A DNA stretch of 47,712 nucleotides from Microcaldota archaeon (GTDB lineage: Archaea; Micrarchaeota; Micrarchaeia; Anstonellales; SKW190), in NCBI GenBank assembly GCA_026414265.1, contig JAOAJI010000007.1, forward strand, positions 1 to 47,712, read 5' to 3'. The notes below the pieces were generated by a model. That model searched no databases. It was not told where the DNA came from and saw only the letters and a program-made list of their open reading frames with translations. Below are positions 2 to 11,092 of this stretch, in pieces (the first letter of the stretch is position 1; every line of letters begins with the position of its first letter). The translations under genes and the position numbers were made by a program.

Positions 2-127
2 AGACCTATCATAGGTAAAGTAAGACCCATGACCTATAACGGCATAAAAAACAAGCATCCTGATATCGATAAATACATTATGAAAATAGATAACCTTTGG
101 GAAAATAAAGAACTAAAGAAGAACTAA
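2..127 (+). CDS. C-terminal fragment of an unidentified protein
   Basis: An open frame enters from the left edge and stops with TAA at 125-127, giving 41 residues that are basic and end in a Lys-rich tail. I do not recognise the family. It is convergent with the 16S rRNA on the other strand; its stop lies about 45 bases from the outer arm of the 16S processing stem. A 7-bp inverted repeat (AAAGACA / TGTCTTT) straddles its 3' side and could end transcription. Whether it is coding rests only on the open frame and natural-looking composition. Confidence 0.5.
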   Translation, partial: RPIIGKVRPMTYNGIKNKHPDIDKYIMKIDNLWENKELKKN

Positions 128-170
128 AGACAAATAAACGTCTGTCTTTCAATTCTTGGTCATCGTTTCC

Positions 171-207
171 CATGCTCTGCAGCACTTAGGATGATATTTG
201 TTGCACA
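171..207 (-). other. Pre-16S processing stem, trailer arm
   Basis: Downstream partner of the leader arm at 1847-1882. It lies about 60 bases past the mature 16S 3' end and supplies the other strand of the bulge-helix-bulge. Its presence shows that the 16S is processed as its own unit, without a downstream 23S. Confidence 0.85.
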
Positions 208-266
208 ATAAAGCTGTACTTAAAAATAAAGGATAAATGAATTGCTTGCACACTTGTTTGTATTTT

Positions 267-1777
<1,511 letters not shown>

Positions 1778-1846
1778 TGTGGCTTTGTTAAGCCACTGAA
1801 AACAGAATATTGGTATTCTGGTTCGTACAGCTCGCCTATTAAGGCA

Positions 1847-1882
1847 TGTGCAACAAATATCGCTATCCTTGCGCAGAGCATG
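1847..1882 (-). other. Pre-16S processing stem, leader arm
   Basis: This leader segment pairs with the trailer segment at 171-207. A 15-bp helix (1847-1861 with 193-207) is followed by a 3-nt bulge on the leader side (1862-1864), a 5-bp helix (1865-1869 with 188-192), a 3-nt bulge on the trailer side (185-187), then 3 bp, one bulged base and a 10-bp helix (1873-1882 with 171-180). That is the bulge-helix-bulge shape cut by archaeal tRNA splicing endonuclease in pre-16S maturation. The pairing is read directly from the sequence; enzyme use is established for archaeal rRNA. Confidence 0.85.
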
Positions 1883-1970
1883 AGTCGAATCCTTCAATTG
1901 AAGAATTCCCATAAATTACGAGATAAACACGAGTGAAAATTAACAGCAAAACTTAATTATCTATGTATAT

Positions 1971-1980
1971 GTTTATAAAC
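1971..1980 (-). promoter_or_regulatory. TATA box of the 16S rRNA unit
   Basis: TTTATAAAC-type box on the minus strand, immediately beyond the stop codon of the upstream gene (ends 1982). A start about 25 bases downstream would give a leader of roughly 170 nt that includes the whole processing arm. No second TATA-like element lies closer to the gene. Confidence 0.6.
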
Positions 1981-1981
1981 C

Positions 1982-2638
1982 TTATCTAAGGTCTATTCTA
2001 GCAATAGGTAACAAGTTGGTGTCATAACCTGAAAAATGTTTCTTAAACGAAATGTGACATACTATCGCGAAATCTATTTCATCTCTGTCAGATACAGCTA
2101 CAACACTATAGTACCTTCTTTTACCATGCGATATTTTTACATCTATATTAGGATCTGAGAAATCAAAACCATCATAACAAATTTTTTTCTTAGAACTACA
2201 TGGAATAATTAATAATCTGTAGTTAATCAAATCGATAACCATTTTGTTATTGTCAGAAATTTTCTCCAAATCAATGATGGCGCTAAACAACAAGAATTCA
2301 GATTGATTAACTTTAAATTTCCTATTGTTAACAACCAATTCCTTAGAAAAATTTGTTGAGTTCAAATGAATAAGATAATCAGTTGGACCTGAAGAGAAAA
2401 ATCCTATTCTCTCGACTTCGAAAAAACGATTGTTATTGCTAAGTATCGGAAATTCATTAGATATGTTTATTAATACTGAAGAGTCTGTTCTCTCATAAAT
2501 ATCAAGCGTTACTTCTTGTAAATTGAAAGAAGTACTTATCAAAATTATTGCTATTAGTGATGAGGATAACAATACAAGGAATATTATAGCTATAATTATG
2601 AAGTTTTGAAATAACTTTTTGGTCTTTGACGTTATCAT
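1982..2638 (-). CDS. Membrane-anchored hypothetical protein
   Basis: 218 residues that I do not recognise. A short basic start is followed by one long hydrophobic segment (about residues 13-34), then a hydrophilic beta-rich outer part with several Asn and Ser residues, so it is probably anchored at the N-terminus with the rest outside the cell. The ATG overlaps the stop of sua5 by four bases (ATGA), so the two are translationally coupled in one operon. It ends just before the 16S promoter. Confidence 0.75.
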   Translation of the reverse strand: MITSKTKKLFQNFIIIAIIFLVLLSSSLIAIILISTSFNLQEVTLDIYERTDSSVLINISNEFPILSNNNRFFEVERIGFFSSGPTDYLIHLNSTNFSKELVVNNRKFKVNQSEFLLFSAIIDLEKISDNNKMVIDLINYRLLIIPCSSKKKICYDGFDFSDPNIDVKISHGKRRYYSVVAVSDRDEIDFAIVCHISFKKHFSGYDTNLLPIARIDLR

Positions 2639-3642
2639 AAATTTAATTTTTTGATTAAATTATTTAATTCATGTAGATAGGATACGCTACAAAAAGCACT
2701 CTTTCTTATTCTATTCATTACAGCTAAATTTATGCCTCGTTCCTCTAAAGCAGCTATCATAATGAATTCTATAGATTTCTTATCACAATCCCTGTAAATG
2801 CTATAAAGTTTTTTGTGGAAAAGTTCAACTTTATCAGGAAATATGATAATATAACGTTTATTATTTTTTTCTAAAACCTCTTTAAAGCTCTCGATTAACA
2901 ATGTTTTCTTATCGCTTTCAAATAGTATTACCTTAGCATTTGGTGCATAGTGCCTATATTTCATACCTGGAGACTTTGGAGTAATTTTGTTTGACTTTTG
3001 TATCATCCATAGTTCTAAGTCTGGCAGTATTTTCTTTAGTTCCTCAAACGTAATTGCACCAGGTCTAAGAATGACAGGCTTTTCAGAAGTCAAATCCAAA
3101 ACAGTAGATTCTAAACCAATTCTACACGAGCGCGACTTGATGATAGCTGCTATTTTACCATTGAAATCCTCGTAAACATGTTTGTAATTTGTTGGAGAAG
3201 GCTTTCCAGATAAGTTAGCTGATGGAGCAGCTATAGGCACTTCAGATAACCTAATAAGTTTCAATGCAACACTGTGCCTAGGCATCCTAATAGCAATAGT
3301 GTTAAGATTAGCAGAAACTTCTTTAGGAACAAATTCTTTTTTAGGCAAAATTAGTGTAAGTGGACCTGGCCAGTACTTTCTAATCAAAAGAGCTACTTTA
3401 GGAAAAATTATTTTATCTATTTTACAGAGTTCAAACACTTGCTTTTTTCTACATACATGTATTATTAATGGATTATCTACAGGTCTATTCTTAACAACGA
3501 AAACCTTTCTTACAGCATTCGGATCTAATGCATTAGCGCCTAAACCATAAACAGTTTCAGTAGGAAATGCTACTAATTCTCCCTTTTTTATGAGCTCTGC
3601 TGCTATTTGTATGTCATTTGAACTAAGAATATGTGTATGCAT
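2635..3642 (-). CDS. sua5: Threonylcarbamoyl-AMP synthase, Sua5/YrdC/YciO family
   Basis: Makes threonylcarbamoyl-AMP from Thr, bicarbonate and ATP, the first step of t6A37 in ANN-decoding tRNAs. The YrdC domain fills about residues 5-200: PTETVYGLGANA near the start, KNRPVDNPL, WPGPLTLI, AIRMPRH, the PSANLSGKPSPT motif and LRPGA. The typical Sua5 linker (SPGMKYRHYAP) follows and then a smaller Rossmann-like C-terminal domain. At 335 residues it is a full-length Sua5, not a short TsaC. An orphan membrane protein follows with a 4-base overlap; no KEOPS gene is nearby. Confidence 0.93.
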   Translation of the reverse strand: MHTHILSSNDIQIAAELIKKGELVAFPTETVYGLGANALDPNAVRKVFVVKNRPVDNPLIIHVCRKKQVFELCKIDKIIFPKVALLIRKYWPGPLTLILPKKEFVPKEVSANLNTIAIRMPRHSVALKLIRLSEVPIAAPSANLSGKPSPTNYKHVYEDFNGKIAAIIKSRSCRIGLESTVLDLTSEKPVILRPGAITFEELKKILPDLELWMIQKSNKITPKSPGMKYRHYAPNAKVILFESDKKTLLIESFKEVLEKNNKRYIIIFPDKVELFHKKLYSIYRDCDKKSIEFIMIAALEERGINLAVMNRIRKSAFCSVSYLHELNNLIKKLNL

Positions 3643-3687
3643 ATGATTATTTTTAAAGGATCACGTATTAAAAAATAGCTTAATTCA

Positions 3688-6069
3688 TTACAAATTTTTT
3701 TGCTCTAATGTATCAGAAACTAAAGGCTTAGTAAAGGCTAAGACCTCTGAAAGATTTGCATTCTTTGAAACAACAAGCAACATGTTTCTGTTTTTCCCTA
3801 AAACTAATACTGCTGTTGCTTTGGATAAATTAATTAACATATAGTTGATATTTTTTGCATAATTTATTTCTAGTAATCTTTTTACAGCAGATAATAATTT
3901 GATCATCATGACGCGCATTACTGACCTACTTGAATCTCTAGGCAAGTTTTCTTGAATAATATTACCTTCCTTATCGAAAATTACAGATGAGAGAAGTATG
4001 TTTTTTGTCTTTAAAGTCGAAGAAATTAATGTAAAGACATTACTTTCAATAAAATCTTTAGGGTATTTATAAATAGTGTTATTTTGCAAGCCATATACAT
4101 TCTTATCTATCTTGGAATAAAATTCATTTAGTATAACATCATATAACATTTCAGGAACACCAATTTCAATTAAGTCATGCTCTGTAATCTTTTCATATTT
4201 TTCAAGTTTTTGCGTTAATAAATTAAACCAGTTATCCTTATCCTGCTTATATGTTTTTACTAAGTTATCAAGCTGAGCTTTAATAACACTCATACGCGTT
4301 TTAGTATTTTTAATCAATGAACTATAATTAATAAGTTTTTCTTTATTTGCAGAAATTATAGCGTTATCCTTGATGTTTAGAATTTTTGGTATAGGTAATA
4401 ATAAATATTCTTCTTGCGTTTTGAAGAGTATACCTTGCATAAGTCCAAGGTCTTTTACTTGACTAAATAAAGAATCTATATCGCTTTTTAACTTGACAAT
4501 TTCTTTTTTTGTGACAAGAAGCTCCTTTTTGAGTTTATCCTCATCAGATAGATAATATTGCTCTCCCAGCACTAATATTTTGATTATTTCAATTACTGAT
4601 TTTTTAAGTAAAACAGCTGACAAGCATAAAGATAACCCTAAAAAGGTGTTTAAGTAATCAGCAAGCAAAACTCTCGTAAAAGTTACAACTTTGAATTCGG
4701 TATAGACAGATTCTAACCTTGTTTTAGGTACGTAAAAAATAATAGCTATTATAATGAACGTAGAGACAAACAGATAAATCAAGTATTTAGAATCATGTTT
4801 TCCTGCTAATTGCATTAATGCAACTTTTGGATTTTTTGAAAATACTGCATTTATAATTGCTAATGTAGTACCTAAATACTTTACTAAAATCATTATAATC
4901 AAGTAAAAAGTAAAAAGTAATAAACCAAAGCCTATGTAAGTACCAAAAAGTGTATCATATGCATTAATTATACTATCAATTGATGAAAATATAATCACAT
5001 AAACTGTAGCTAATTTAAGTGAATCGTCAGGTATAAACGAAACGTCTACACCAAAAGGATTCTGTTTATTTATAATGCTTTGATAATCAAAATTTGGATG
5101 CTGATATTCGTAATAAGATTGCAATGAAAAGTCTAGAGGATTATCTCTTATAGATTCATAACTAAAAATAAATGAAGAGTTTTGATAGGTAAAATTACCA
5201 TACGGTGGAACAGATACCTTTACATTAAAAACATTTGACACTACTGGAGTGTAGTTCAACTTTAATTTTGTATAAACATAACTTTTTTCAGAAAAAACAA
5301 TCACCTCATCACTTACTTTGAATTTTATCTCTGCAGGAGTTTTTTTACGTATAATGTCCTTTGTTATGTTGCTAATTATACTGTCTTTAAGAGAATTGTA
5401 TAACTCAGAAACGTATGAAGGATCTACGTAAGTACCTGCACAAGGACTATTTAATGTCGCAGAATATAATTTGCTGTATTTTTCTATTAATCCATAAGAA
5501 ATATTTCTTGCACCACTAACGTTATTGCTATTTATCATCAACTGAAGTTGATCAAAATCTTTTTCTATGTCGCTTATTTTATTAGCAATGTCTTTGATTG
5601 TACGTATACCTTGCTCGTAATTATTAGTCAAATAAGCCTCACAGAGAGCAGATTTTTTACATGCTATCATACAATTTGGATAGTCAGTACATGTTCTTAT
5701 TTCCCAATAATTAATTGCCTCTTTACAACTGTAAATCAAATCATCAAATGTAAATTTGGCTGAGGTAAATTTATTAATTGTTTCTTCTGGAATTTGAAAA
5801 CTCTCATTAACTATTTCTTGTGTACTTTCAGAGTATCGATATTCAAGATTATAAGTAGTTTTTCGCGTAGTATTAATTCCAGGGGCTTGAAACATTGTAT
5901 ACACAATAACGATTCTATCAGGTAGTCCATCGCTATCAATGTCTATTTCATTCTTAGAAGCTACCTCTAAAGAATTTTTAGTAGCCGCATAGTTAGTTAG
6001 ACATCCAGAAAAATAAAGAATAAGGAATATAAATGTAAAAAGACCCAAGTATTTAATTAGAGTAGCCAC
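3688..6069 (-). CDS. Large membrane protein with C-terminal Roadblock/LC7-like domain
   Basis: 793 residues, GTG start. The N-terminus has a hydrophobic segment ending in YFSGC, lipobox-like. It is followed by an acidic DIDSDGLPD motif (calcium-loop-like) and a Cys-containing, mostly beta outer region to about residue 370. Three or four membrane segments follow (about 385-520), then a long coiled coil (about 540-650). The last 110 residues have the pattern of a Roadblock/LC7 fold: strand, DKEGNII turn, long helix over the VMRVMMIKLLSAVKRL stretch, strand, AVLVLGKNRNMLLVVS hairpin, final helix. The outer part is unrecognised; the Roadblock assignment is my inference from pattern. The gene is divergent from hydE with an 84-bp shared intergenic. 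Confidence 0.7.
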   Translation of the reverse strand: MATLIKYLGLFTFIFLILYFSGCLTNYAATKNSLEVASKNEIDIDSDGLPDRIVIVYTMFQAPGINTTRKTTYNLEYRYSESTQEIVNESFQIPEETINKFTSAKFTFDDLIYSCKEAINYWEIRTCTDYPNCMIACKKSALCEAYLTNNYEQGIRTIKDIANKISDIEKDFDQLQLMINSNNVSGARNISYGLIEKYSKLYSATLNSPCAGTYVDPSYVSELYNSLKDSIISNITKDIIRKKTPAEIKFKVSDEVIVFSEKSYVYTKLKLNYTPVVSNVFNVKVSVPPYGNFTYQNSSFIFSYESIRDNPLDFSLQSYYEYQHPNFDYQSIINKQNPFGVDVSFIPDDSLKLATVYVIIFSSIDSIINAYDTLFGTYIGFGLLLFTFYLIIMILVKYLGTTLAIINAVFSKNPKVALMQLAGKHDSKYLIYLFVSTFIIIAIIFYVPKTRLESVYTEFKVVTFTRVLLADYLNTFLGLSLCLSAVLLKKSVIEIIKILVLGEQYYLSDEDKLKKELLVTKKEIVKLKSDIDSLFSQVKDLGLMQGILFKTQEEYLLLPIPKILNIKDNAIISANKEKLINYSSLIKNTKTRMSVIKAQLDNLVKTYKQDKDNWFNLLTQKLEKYEKITEHDLIEIGVPEMLYDVILNEFYSKIDKNVYGLQNNTIYKYPKDFIESNVFTLISSTLKTKNILLSSVIFDKEGNIIQENLPRDSSRSVMRVMMIKLLSAVKRLLEINYAKNINYMLINLSKATAVLVLGKNRNMLLVVSKNANLSEVLAFTKPLVSDTLEQKNL

Positions 6070-6121: not shown

Positions 6122-6129
6122 TTTATTAT
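6122..6129 (+). promoter_or_regulatory. Probable TATA box of the hydEFG operon
   Basis: TTTATTAT lies 25-32 bases before the hydE ATG at 6154, the spacing expected for a leaderless archaeal transcript, and no Shine-Dalgarno precedes that ATG. A second AT-rich box (6138-6146) is too close to be the TATA element for this start. Confidence 0.4.
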
Positions 6130-6153
6130 TATCTACGTTTATATTATTATGAA

Positions 6154-7284
6154 ATGAAAAACCACCTTAACCGTTTGTTAATTAATCTAATCAAAGAAAA
6201 TGGGGAATACAGCGATAGTATCAAAAAACTGCTTGAACTAAACAACACCCAAGAAATAGAATTTTTAAAGAATAAGACAACAGAAATAACACAAAAATTT
6301 GTGGGAAACAAGGTCTATTTTAGAGGAATTATAGAATTTAGTAATGTATGTGAAAAAAATTGTTACTATTGTGGAATAAGAAAAGATAACAAAAAAATCA
6401 AAAGATATTTGATGGATGAGAAAAAAATTATTGATTGTGCTCTGTTTGCAGCTAAAAACGGATATGGATCCATTGTCCTACAATCAGGAGAACTTACATC
6501 AAAAAACTTTATAGATTATGTGATAAAGTTAGTTGCCAACATAAAAAAATTAACTAAAAAGTACCAAAAAAACGGATTGGGAATAACTCTTTCTATAGGT
6601 GAACAATCAAAAAAAGTATATCAAGAGCTGTATGATGCCGGTGCGCACAGATATCTACTTAGAATAGAGACATCTAATAAAAATCTTTATAGGAAGTTGC
6701 ATCCTGATGACGAAAAGCACTCTTTTGAAAAAAGATTAAATTGCCTAAAACACCTAAAAGAAATAGGTTATCAGTTAGGCACAGGAGTGATGATAGGACT
6801 ACCTGGACAAACTATAGAAGATTTAGTTAACGATGTTATATTCTACAAAAACATTGACGCGGATATGATAGGTATGGGACCGTATGTTATACATACAGAA
6901 ACACCTCTAAGATGGTATGAAAAGACATGGCAAAAAAATAGATCAACTATTTTTAATTTGTCACTGAAAATGATCGCAGTTACAAGACTTCTTTTGAAGG
7001 ACGTAAACATAGCAGCCACTACTGCACTGCAAACATTTCATCCTTATGGAAGGGAATTAGGGATACTTTTTGGCGCAAACGTGATAATGCCCATAATAAC
7101 ACCTCTAGAATTCAGAAAACATTACATGCTCTATGAGAATAAGCCTTGTATAGATGAAGACGCCACTAAATGCAATGCTTGTTTGCTATCAAGAATAAAA
7201 AAAATTAACAAAGACATAGGCCTCTTTGAGTACGGAGACTCACAACATTTTAAGAATAAAAAGAAACATGTAAAAAGGTGCTAA
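6154..7284 (+). CDS. hydE: [FeFe] hydrogenase H-cluster maturase HydE (radical SAM)
   Basis: Radical SAM enzyme that helps build the diiron subcluster of [FeFe] hydrogenase. The SAM cluster motif CEKNCYYC gives Cys66, Cys70 and Cys73 (CX3CX2C). A second motif near the end, Cys332-X7-Cys340-X2-Cys343, matches the accessory cluster site found in many HydE proteins such as the Thermotoga one. The barrel segments VLQSGE, GLGITLSIGE, RIETSN and GVMIGLPGQT are as in HydE. BioB and PylB are relatives, but the second Cys motif and the neighbouring hydF and hydG settle the call. First gene of hydEFG; one base separates its stop from the hydF GTG. Confidence 0.95.
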   Translation: MKNHLNRLLINLIKENGEYSDSIKKLLELNNTQEIEFLKNKTTEITQKFVGNKVYFRGIIEFSNVCEKNCYYCGIRKDNKKIKRYLMDEKKIIDCALFAAKNGYGSIVLQSGELTSKNFIDYVIKLVANIKKLTKKYQKNGLGITLSIGEQSKKVYQELYDAGAHRYLLRIETSNKNLYRKLHPDDEKHSFEKRLNCLKHLKEIGYQLGTGVMIGLPGQTIEDLVNDVIFYKNIDADMIGMGPYVIHTETPLRWYEKTWQKNRSTIFNLSLKMIAVTRLLLKDVNIAATTALQTFHPYGRELGILFGANVIMPIITPLEFRKHYMLYENKPCIDEDATKCNACLLSRIKKINKDIGLFEYGDSQHFKNKKKHVKRC

Positions 7285-7285
7285 T

Positions 7286-8596
7286 GTGCAAAAAGCCATT
7301 CTCGTAGACAGAATCAACATAGGCATTTACGGAAGAACCAATACTGGCAAATCCACTATTATGAATCTACTGACGAACCAAAACTCGTCAATAGTTGACG
7401 ATACTCCTGGAACTACATCTGATATCGTAAGAGTTTTATATGAGATCCATGACTTCGGACCTGTCAGAATATTTGACACGCCTGGTTTAGATGAATACAC
7501 ACAAGTAGGTTTTAAGAGAAAAGAAAAAGCATTGTTGAACTTCAAAGAATGTGACTTGATCTTACTTGTCATTAATCCAAACAACAAAAACTTGAAAGTT
7601 GAAAATGAGATAATGAGCCTGGCTAAACAGTATCAAAAACAATTAATTATTGTGTTTAATTGGTTCAAAAATCAGATACAAAACGATTATGATCTTAACA
7701 AAAATGTTGAATTTATTTTAGAAAATTTATTTGATGCTAAGGCACACAATCATTTAATAATTGACGCCTCTGAAAAAGAAAGCTCAAGAAAACTTGTTGA
7801 AGCAATCAAACAATTCTACAAAAAAGAAGAAAAGAAAATAGACATTCTACCTTTTGTGAAACCATACTCGTTTGTTGCTTTAAACATACCAATAGACGAA
7901 GAAACGCCAGAAAGAAGATTACTAAGACCACAAAACGTGGTTCTAGATTACTTGTTGAGAAGGATGGTTCCTTTTGCCGGCTATAGAATGGATCTACAAA
8001 AAGCAAGAAGCCAAATTAAAGAAATCCAAGAAGAAGAAAAAAATAATTATCTCGCTTTCATAGAAGAACTTAATGGTACTTCTATGGGCCTACAACTAGT
8101 TATTACAGATTCTCAAGCCATTGACATAGTAGACAAGTGGACTCCTAGAGAAATTCCAATAACTACTTTTTCAATAACGATGATAAATTATCAAAGCAAT
8201 GGACATCTCAAAAAATTCATTGAAGGACTAAATGTATTAAAAAGATTAAAAAAGCATGACAAAGTCCTAATCGCTGAAGCCTGTAACCATGACAGAAAAT
8301 GTGATGATATAGGTACAAAACAAATACCAAGAAGATTAACTCAGAAACTTGGATTTGAACTAGAATTTAAGTTCGTCTTTGGAAGAGAATTCTTCTCTAA
8401 AGAATTGCTCGATGATTGTAAATTAATCATCCATTGCGGAGGCTGTATGGTCGATTCTCAAAAAATACAGGCAAGGATATTAACAGCTGAAGAGAATCTA
8501 ATCCCTATAACGAATTATGGTTTAGTTTTATCTTATATAGAAGGTGAAAAAGCGCTAAATAGGGTCTTGGAACCATGGCTAAAGCAATTGGGGTGA
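7286..8596 (+). CDS. hydF: [FeFe] hydrogenase maturation GTPase/scaffold HydF
   Basis: GTPase and scaffold that carries the diiron precursor and passes it to apo-hydrogenase. The G domain shows the P-loop GRTNTGKS (residues 16-23), DDTPGTT (switch I) and DTPG (64-67). The C-terminal cluster domain has the HydF signature CxH-X47-HCxxC: Cys333, His335, His383, Cys384, Cys387. The middle region is the dimerisation domain. It starts with GTG, preceded by AGGTG six bases upstream inside the end of hydE; the ATG two bases earlier is out of frame. At 436 residues it is normal for the family. hydG follows after 6 bases. Confidence 0.95.
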   Translation: MQKAILVDRINIGIYGRTNTGKSTIMNLLTNQNSSIVDDTPGTTSDIVRVLYEIHDFGPVRIFDTPGLDEYTQVGFKRKEKALLNFKECDLILLVINPNNKNLKVENEIMSLAKQYQKQLIIVFNWFKNQIQNDYDLNKNVEFILENLFDAKAHNHLIIDASEKESSRKLVEAIKQFYKKEEKKIDILPFVKPYSFVALNIPIDEETPERRLLRPQNVVLDYLLRRMVPFAGYRMDLQKARSQIKEIQEEEKNNYLAFIEELNGTSMGLQLVITDSQAIDIVDKWTPREIPITTFSITMINYQSNGHLKKFIEGLNVLKRLKKHDKVLIAEACNHDRKCDDIGTKQIPRRLTQKLGFELEFKFVFGREFFSKELLDDCKLIIHCGGCMVDSQKIQARILTAEENLIPITNYGLVLSYIEGEKALNRVLEPWLKQLG

Positions 8597-8602
8597 GATA
8601 AC

Positions 8603-9994
8603 ATGGTCGGATTTATTGATGAGAAACTAGTAAATAACATCCTTGAAGAGAATCAAAATCCAAAAAAAGAAGATTGCCTAGAAATTATCAAAAAAGCTGA
8701 AGAATCAAAAGGTTTAACATTAGAGGAAACAGCGAAACTACTGCAAACTAATGATCAAAAAGTTATTCAAGTTATGTTCAAAACAGCAAAAAAAGTCAAA
8801 GAAAGAATCTATGGAACTAGACTTGTACTTTTTGCACCAGTATATCTCTCAAATTATTGCAGTAACAATTGCCTCTACTGTGCCTTCAGAAAAGATAACA
8901 GGGAATTAAAAAGAAAAACCCTGACAATGAATGAACTGAAAAAAGAAATAGAATTTCTAATTCAGCAGGGCCAAAAAAGAGTATTACTTGTAGCTGGTGA
9001 AGACCTTAGGCATACTAATATTGACTACTTAGAAGAAGCTATTAAAACTGTGTACTCAACCAAAGTAGGAAATGGCGAAATAAGACGATTGAACATTAAC
9101 GTGGCACCATTGTCACTAGATAATTTCATTAGATTAAAAAATGCAAAAATAGGTACTTATCAGCTATTTCAAGAAACGTACCATTACGAAACGTACAAGA
9201 AAATGCACCCACAAGGGCCAAAAGCAGATTACAAAAAAAGACTTTACGCTATGGACTTGGCTCAAAAGGCAGGCATAGACGATGTAGGCATAGGCGTTCT
9301 CTTTGGATTATATGACTACAAATTCGAAGTATTGTGCCTATTACTCCATGCACAACACCTTGAAGAAGAATTTGGAACTGGACCACATACGATATCTGTA
9401 CCTAGGATAGAACCTGCTCTAAATGCACCAGTCTCAACTAATCCTCCTTATCCTGTTTCTGATCAAGAATTCAAAAAACTAGTAGCTATAATACGCTTGG
9501 CAGTACCTTACACTGGAATGATTCTCTCAACAAGAGAAAATGCACAATTGCGAGATCAACTCTTCTCTTTAGGTATATCTCAAATAAGTGCTGGCTCTAG
9601 AACGAATCCAGGAGGGTATTCTGAATCAGAAAAAGAAAAATTTGATGAAGCCCAATTCAAAGTCCATGATAACAGATCACTTAGTAAAGTCATCAAAGAT
9701 ATATCTAATATGGGTTTCCTTCCTAGCTTCTGCACTGCCTGCTATCGTTCCGGAAGAACTGGAGATTATTTCATGCAATTCGCAAAATCTGGCAACATAC
9801 AAAACTTTTGTCACCCTAATGCAATTCTTACATTTAAGGAATATCTACTAGACTACGCTGATGAAGAAATGAAAAAATTTGGAGAAAAAGTAATTCAACG
9901 AGAAATCCAAAATATTACTAATCCAAAAATTAAGGAATTAACGATCAAAAAATTGAAACTTCTAGAAGATGGTCAAAGAGACCTATACTTCTAA
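8603..9994 (+). CDS. hydG: [FeFe] hydrogenase maturase HydG (tyrosine lyase)
   Basis: Radical SAM tyrosine lyase that splits Tyr to p-cresol and dehydroglycine and makes the CO and CN ligands of the H-cluster. The radical SAM motif CSNNCLYC gives Cys86, Cys90 and Cys93. The diagnostic C-terminal CX2CX22C is exact (Cys377, Cys380, Cys403), which separates it from the relative ThiH and shows that the site for the five-iron auxiliary cluster is kept. GGGGTGAG at the end of hydF serves as ribosome binding site. Length 463 is typical. Last gene of the operon; a convergent gene begins about 20 bases on. Confidence 0.96.
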   Translation: MVGFIDEKLVNNILEENQNPKKEDCLEIIKKAEESKGLTLEETAKLLQTNDQKVIQVMFKTAKKVKERIYGTRLVLFAPVYLSNYCSNNCLYCAFRKDNRELKRKTLTMNELKKEIEFLIQQGQKRVLLVAGEDLRHTNIDYLEEAIKTVYSTKVGNGEIRRLNINVAPLSLDNFIRLKNAKIGTYQLFQETYHYETYKKMHPQGPKADYKKRLYAMDLAQKAGIDDVGIGVLFGLYDYKFEVLCLLLHAQHLEEEFGTGPHTISVPRIEPALNAPVSTNPPYPVSDQEFKKLVAIIRLAVPYTGMILSTRENAQLRDQLFSLGISQISAGSRTNPGGYSESEKEKFDEAQFKVHDNRSLSKVIKDISNMGFLPSFCTACYRSGRTGDYFMQFAKSGNIQNFCHPNAILTFKEYLLDYADEEMKKFGEKVIQREIQNITNPKIKELTIKKLKLLEDGQRDLYF

Positions 9995-10014: not shown

Positions 10015-10908
10015 TCAAAAAACTTGCAAAATTTTTATGGCAATAATTGAAAAAAAATTAAAGAAAAAGTGTGTAAAAATACAGGTATTTAAATTTGATT
10101 TAGTATAAACTAAACCAAGAACAACTCCTATAACGAACGAGGCTATCAACTGAACAATTGACAAGTATGAAAGATGAAATAACGCAAAAATAAAAGAACT
10201 CGTCAATAAACCTGCTCTTTTTAACAGAAAACCACGAAAAAAAAGTTCTTCAGTTATCGGCACAAAGATAATCGCAAATAATAAAATAGAAGAATCCATT
10301 GAGTTAATAACATCAATTACTTTGTAATTGTCAATTACTACTATATCTTTCAAAATATAAAGTATGAGATTCATTAATATAAGTGACGCCACATAAAACA
10401 AAAAGCCGAAAATAAGTTGCCGTATATCTAACTTTTCTATCTTATGATCAACAAAGAAAGAGTCTAAATCTTTATTATAAACCACAAAATGAAAGAAAAA
10501 AGGTGTTACCAATAACCATATATGCACAGGGAATGTTGCAAAATATGATAGCTTAGCAGATCCTGACCCACTCAAAACCAAAACAATTAGAATAGTAATG
10601 GCAATTATGTTCAAAAAAAAGATAGAAGTGTTTAAAGTATCGTATTTATTCAAGTCTACATATTTGAAACGTGAATTAATACGGAACAGTGCCATATACG
10701 TTATGTACGGTAGAACGATTACTGCTAAAGAGTATAACACTTGATCAGTGATATTCAAAGAGTTTTGTACAACTTGTGTTAACTTGAAAAAAATTGATAA
10801 CAAAAAAAACGGAATAGCAACTGAACAAGAAGAAAAAAACAAAACTACTAAGAAACGCTTGAAATCTATTGAACTAAAAAACTCTCTGATTCTAGAATCA
10901 ACTATCAT
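10015..10908 (-). CDS. CPBP-family intramembrane metalloprotease
   Basis: Multi-span membrane protein with the three CPBP (Abi/Rce1-like) motifs near its C-terminus: EELFFR (EExxxR), FALFH (FxxxH) and HFFFN (HxxxN), which hold the catalytic Glu and metal-binding His residues. About eight hydrophobic segments. Family members cleave prenylated or other membrane peptides or act in self-immunity; the substrate here is unknown. I place the start at ATG 10908, because the upstream GTG (10956) would overlap rps27ae by about 30 bases; the ATG leaves a 16-base gap. Convergent with hydG. Confidence 0.85.
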   Translation of the reverse strand: MIVDSRIREFFSSIDFKRFLVVLFFSSCSVAIPFFLLSIFFKLTQVVQNSLNITDQVLYSLAVIVLPYITYMALFRINSRFKYVDLNKYDTLNTSIFFLNIIAITILIVLVLSGSGSAKLSYFATFPVHIWLLVTPFFFHFVVYNKDLDSFFVDHKIEKLDIRQLIFGFLFYVASLILMNLILYILKDIVVIDNYKVIDVINSMDSSILLFAIIFVPITEELFFRGFLLKRAGLLTSSFIFALFHLSYLSIVQLIASFVIGVVLGLVYTKSNLNTCIFTHFFFNFFSIIAIKILQVF

Positions 10909-10924
10909 TGGATAATCATTATTA

Positions 10925-11092
10925 TTACTTCTTGACAAAATATCCACACTTACCACACGATAGTCTATCTTTGTGTGTAGCTAATTTGACTCCTGGACCA
11001 CACTTAGGACAATTGTTACCAGGTTGGTATACTTTTACTTGTTTTTTTTCTTTTTGCTTAGTCTGGTGAGTCTTTGAGGAATCTGCAGCCAT
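10925..11092 (-). CDS. rps27ae: 30S ribosomal protein S27ae
   Basis: A 55-residue zinc-ribbon protein. After a Lys-rich N-terminal tail it reads [19 protein letters not shown] followed by GKCGYF, matching archaeal S27ae with its four zinc Cys in two CxxC pairs. ATG at 11092, stop TAA at 10925-10927. It follows S24e on the same strand after 57 bases, the conserved archaeal order S24e-S27ae. Confidence 0.95.

Follow-up and report, generated by a model that had tools for sequence, protein, structure and literature searches.

A complete hydEFG maturation operon and its probable [FeFe] hydrogenase partner in the genome of a Microcaldota archaeon

Archaeal [FeFe] hydrogenases are reportedly the subject of a paper entitled "Minimal and hybrid hydrogenases are active from archaea", said to have appeared in Cell in 2024. 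An archaeal enzyme of group A is already known, that of group A3 in Woesearchaeota having been published in 2021 (PMC8421398, with no mention of HydE, HydF or HydG); [FeFe] hydrogenases in archaea are thus not a novelty, which qualifies the original prediction. The HydEFG system encoded in the window—the whole analysed stretch of 47,712 nucleotides—is a classical one, and it very probably matures the group A HydA encoded on another contig of the same genome, C40, so that the archaeon would have a functional [FeFe] hydrogenase, probably linked to NADH, and the maturases to go with it. The features concerned are collected in Table 1.

Table 1 Features of the window, of the hydrogenase contig C40 and of the loci with HypC-fused HydE
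Sequence	Feature	Position	Strand	Remarks
Window	Archaeal 16S rRNA gene	267..1777	-	Rfam RF01959 (SSU_rRNA_archaea), 1480.5 bits
Window	Candidate archaeal TATA box in AT-rich stretch	6122..6153	+	TTTATTAT, ~25-32 bases 5' of the hydE ATG; predicted from the sequence
Window	hydE	6154..7284	+	376 aa, radical SAM maturase
Window	hydF	7286..8596	+	436 aa, GTG start, GTPase scaffold
Window	hydG	8603..9994	+	463 aa, radical SAM tyrosine lyase; expected from its family to produce the Fe(CO)(CN) synthon
C40 (L140)	NuoF-like HydB	107-1234		375-aa NuoF core
C40 (L140)	HydA	1251-2918		555 aa
C40 (L140)	Ankyrin-repeat protein	2971-5442		823 aa, directly downstream of HydA
C40	uS2, uS9, uL13, eL18	after the ankyrin gene		Strand opposite to HydB/HydA
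Order genomes	HypC-HydE then HydG (by profile)	L141:6186-7445; L142:7921-9270; L185:6456-7712; L119; L120; L121		
Archaeon DeMMO3_27	HypC-HydE then HydG	L038:4697-6004		
Two Scalindua contigs	HypC-HydE then HydG	L049:2162-3457; L103:4663-5958		

The operon and its archaeal setting

The genes hydE, hydF and hydG are all intact and co-directional, with intergenic gaps of 1 and 6 bases, and form a complete operon that is probably co-transcribed. HydE passed the NCBIfam equivalog model TIGR03956 with 353.7 bits (cut-off 254.6) and HydG passed TIGR03955 with 569.1 bits (cut-off 312.15), while HydF reached 328.9 bits with TIGR03918, barely above the cut-off of 325.55. The best matches among solved structures were PDB 4jy8, itself a HydE, for HydE (E 1.7e-88), PDB 3qq5, 5lad and 5kh0 for HydF, and PDB 4wcx for HydG (E 3.5e-171). 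Concerning the cofactor sites, a scripted motif check located in HydE the radical SAM motif CX3CX2C as CEKNCYYC (residues 66-73) and a second cysteine site, C-X7-C-X2-C (residues 332-343), in HydF the P-loop GRTNTGKS, the DTPG motif and the cluster site CNH-X47-HCGGC, and in HydG the motif CSNNCLYC (CX3CX2C) along with the C-terminal C-X2-C-X22-C. Both earlier claims about the operon thus stand, i.e. that a complete hydEFG set is packed into one tight operon, and that all the signature residues are kept, the three genes being near-gapless and above the curated cut-offs and the CX2CX22C spacing of HydG and the X47 spacing of HydF being exact.

The contig itself, 47.7 kb long with an archaeal 16S rRNA gene and the operon inside, is archaeal. 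The genes adjoining the operon code for eIF-5A, S24e and HMG-CoA reductase, and its predicted place next to archaeal translation genes is confirmed by eIF-5A, S24e and the 16S gene. A DPANN affiliation is suggested by the genome sizes within the order (0.5-2 Mb) and by one genome of the same class having been deposited as Micrarchaeota. The flanking genes (3688-6069 and 10015-10956) lie on the minus strand, opposite to the operon on both sides, which marks the latter as a self-contained, insert-like unit. Its codon usage correlates with that of the other window genes at 0.89 for hydE, 0.92 for hydF and 0.81 for hydG, the spread for the other genes being 0.71-0.95.

The hydrogenase genes on contig C40

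There is no HydA in the window, as had been observed before, and the PF02906 search of the window's own genome gave a single match (3.7e-94), on C40, a contig of 7,992 bases in all. This HydA exhibits all three H-cluster motifs intact—TTCCPAW, MPCTAK and EIMACPGGC. The expectation that the catalytic subunit must be encoded elsewhere is therefore borne out by a gene located beside archaeal ribosomal protein genes, and the refuting condition named in advance, a genome devoid of HydA, does not hold. HydA passed the group A model TIGR02512 with 498.1 bits (cut-off 405.95), its best model overall being the group A6 exception model, with a score under the cut-off of that model. Of the accessory sites, the N-terminal [2Fe-2S] and two [4Fe-4S] are present and the His-Cys3 [4Fe-4S] is missing; since the latter varies within group A, its absence does not exclude HydA from that group. 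In the tree, HydA groups with the HydA of four order-mates (100% SH-aLRT), and the members of this clade share the loss of the His-Cys3 site as well as TTCCP instead of TSCCP. In two relatives with the same HydA (L147 and L148), NuoE, NuoF and HydA stand in a row; C40, with HydB beside HydA, ends before the position that NuoE occupies there, so that a NuoE-like HydC is to be expected just past its end. It may be added that the best model matches of the ankyrin-repeat protein were generic repeats, far under the cut-off.

C40 is taken as part of the window's genome. Its uS2 and uL13 scored above the cut-offs of the archaeal-type models TIGR01012 and TIGR01077, respectively, its eL18 is an archaeal/eukaryotic protein, and the tetranucleotide correlation of its HydA stretch to the window is 0.933 (0.851-0.983 for pieces of the window); no end overlap was found between C40 and other contigs. 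Chimerism was assessed by composition and codon usage, and a binning error or chimerism of C40 was rejected on the ribosomal protein genes, the composition and the HydA phylogeny. The wider possibility that either the operon or C40 belongs to a different member of the metagenome would suit a fragmented genome (117 contigs, 90.7% complete, 3.3% contamination) and a very patchy distribution, window-type HydF occurring in only 2 of the 301 genomes of the phylum. It is, however, very improbable in view of the archaeal 16S gene and the fitting codon usage on the operon's side, the four archaeal ribosomal protein genes and the fitting composition on the side of C40, and the clustering of HydA with order-mates.

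Judging from the protein families, HydG would cleave tyrosine and so provide iron with its CO and cyanide ligands. The resulting synthon would next be processed by HydE, and the [2Fe] unit would be put together on HydF for transfer to apo-HydA, the presumed acceptor being the group A HydA of C40; the two contigs would work together. As HydA sits with the NuoF-like HydB, the enzyme most likely couples NADH (perhaps also ferredoxin) to H2, the electron carriers again being those expected of the families, and H2 evolution in fermentation appears the more likely direction. The archaeon can probably make or use hydrogen.

Hydrogenases and maturases across the order

Among 84 genomes of the order, HydA was found in 30, HydG above the cut-off in 12 and HydF above the cut-off in two; the HydF search was noisy because other GTPases match, and only matches above the cut-off were therefore counted. 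The full set of HydA, HydE, HydF and HydG is confined to the window genome (G000) and to G067, 28 of the 30 HydA genomes being without HydG and HydF, and those without HydG span both a long HydA (G047, 92% complete) and minimal forms. With a mean completeness of 87% for the 28 genomes, the chance of the locus having been missed in all of them would be ~1.5e-26 if they were independent, their relatedness leaving far fewer than 28 events; incompleteness alone is not a credible cause of these absences. It should be noted, as a separate observation, that HydA and clear [NiFe] large-subunit matches never co-occur (0 of 30 HydA genomes, relatedness ignored and weak partial PF00374 matches in three HydA genomes left out of the count).

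That HydA usually occurs in the order with no maturases (the same 28 of 30) might suggest that the genes are relics, present but unused, in the window genome as well; this is very improbable, given that all four are open, keep every ligand and show no signs of decay. Counted against the preferred reading, i.e. that the operon matures the HydA of C40, are the location of HydA and hydEFG on different contigs of the 117-contig assembly, the marginal score and long branch of HydF, the missing His-Cys3 site and TTCCP for TSCCP in HydA, and the closest HydA relatives (G041, G046, G047 and G049) being without HydG and HydF, so that this type of HydA may not depend on them. The window genome being one of only two complete sets in the order, the cofactor supply of maturase-free HydA can be tested with close relatives.

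Ten genomes of the order have HydG without HydF or HydA. The HydE of six of them (G052, G054, G055, G058, G065 and G076) carries an N-terminal HupF/HypC domain above or near the family threshold; the HydE of G075 likewise shows the CYAIPG start, those of G021 and G027 do not have it, and in G056 this part lay beyond the stretch read. HypC-fused HydE directly followed by HydG was also seen beyond the order (Table 1), and no HydA was found in the genomes of L038 and L049. The HypC-fused HydE form one branch, separate from the HydE of the window. A 943-aa open frame on a Nitrospirae contig (L044:4546-7377) includes a HydG with a long N-terminal extension.

A [NiFe] large subunit is present in nine of the ten HydG-only genomes versus 24 of the 74 others (Fisher p 0.0007, relatedness ignored). 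In L038, 1.3 kb separates HypC-HydE from the end of the upstream genes for group 3-type [NiFe] delta and alpha subunits (1372-3430). In G076 the distance is 3 kb, the neighbours there being a [NiFe] large subunit (hydrogenase subunit genes at L185:1627-3535) and a gene resembling hydrogenase proteases. Of the 20 large subunits fetched, all have DPCxxC and 19 have CGxC as read. HypD, HypE and HypF were above the cut-off in a single order genome, G048, with ~33 having a [NiFe] large subunit. It may be, as these associations suggest rather than prove, that HydG together with HypC-HydE feeds the [NiFe] hydrogenase; many [NiFe] genomes are without either set, and the idea does not account for those. 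The pairs thus hint at another route to the [NiFe] cofactor, of which no description was found in the literature examined, and this side finding may outweigh the main one in value. A broader view may be considered, according to which hydrogenases and their assembly enzymes have become uncoupled in the order—most [FeFe] enzymes without HydEFG, most [NiFe] enzymes without HypDEF, the HydG and HypC-HydE pair re-used for the [NiFe] Fe(CO)(CN) unit, and the window genome as one of two with the full classical [FeFe] set, acquired apart from HydA—a tentative picture about which we have more doubt than confidence.

The ten genomes with HydG and neither HydF nor HydA, and the six HypC fusions, could also mean that [FeFe] hydrogenase is not what the window's maturases work for, just as the HydF-less pairs seem to work for [NiFe] hydrogenase. 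This is very unlikely for the window, where HydF is present and HydE, on which the Pfam search found no HypC domain, splits from the HydE of HydF-less pairs (99%), and for its genome, which contains HydA and in which no [NiFe] large subunit was found; with HydF and HydA and without the HypC domain, the system is not one of the HypC-HydE/HydG pairs. The original prediction had regarded the maturases as strong evidence for H2 metabolism. The conclusion holds, HydA being present, but the reasoning needs amending, since the occurrence of HydG without HydF and HydA in ten genomes means that HydE and HydG alone do not demonstrate [FeFe] metabolism in this order, HydF and HydA being the indicative ones. 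Because the genome has both the enzymes assembling the H-cluster and the hydrogenase to receive it, H2 metabolism can here be soundly concluded, with more than the maturases to go on.

Gene histories and comparison with known systems

Among the 301 genomes of the phylum, a single one encodes a HydF closely related to that of the window, namely that of Micrarchaeota archaeon NC_groundwater_1961 (G279; locus L102, identical with L179), at about 51-52% identity, the HydF of G067 being distant. In the HydF tree, the two stand apart on a deep branch of their own (100% SH-aLRT), with a long end branch, and in the HydE tree the window pairs with L102 (97%) and next with a HydE from Halanaerobiaceae (100%). 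No specific bacterial donor emerged from the HydG tree, where a strict pair of the window and L102 is mildly rejected (p-AU 0.021) because the HydG of L102 pairs with the long-branch G067. The transfer history that had been deemed worth resolving by trees is thus clarified in part: HydE and HydF have nearest kin other than those of HydA, so that HydA and the maturase operon probably reached the genome independently, whereas the HydG tree names no donor. The operon may have been exchanged among archaea of the window's class.

The nearest known hydEFG operon is that of L102, from the same class and also in the order E-F-G, its HydE being 56% identical to that of the window and its HydF located on the shared deep branch; the genome has a HydA too, but one from another HydA branch, without the losses shared by the window clade. 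G067, the sole other genome of the order with HydA, HydE, HydF and HydG, differs from the window in its gene order G-E-F, a HydF of clostridial affinity and a minimal HydA. The HydABC of Thermoanaerobacter kivui (PDB 8a6t) provides, with its electron-bifurcating HydA1, the closest solved relative of the HydA over nearly its full length (E 1.7e-167); compared with it, the archaeal HydA has TTCCP as the P1 motif and no His-Cys3 [4Fe-4S] site, and the HydB, a NuoF core of 375 aa, is shorter. With the trimeric A3 [FeFe] hydrogenase of Woesearchaeota (PMC8421398), finally, the present system has in common the small-genome archaeal host, HydA with a NuoF-like partner, the conserved H-cluster cysteines and—here in the window's relatives—the NuoE-like partner; the window genome has the full maturase operon, on which that paper is silent.
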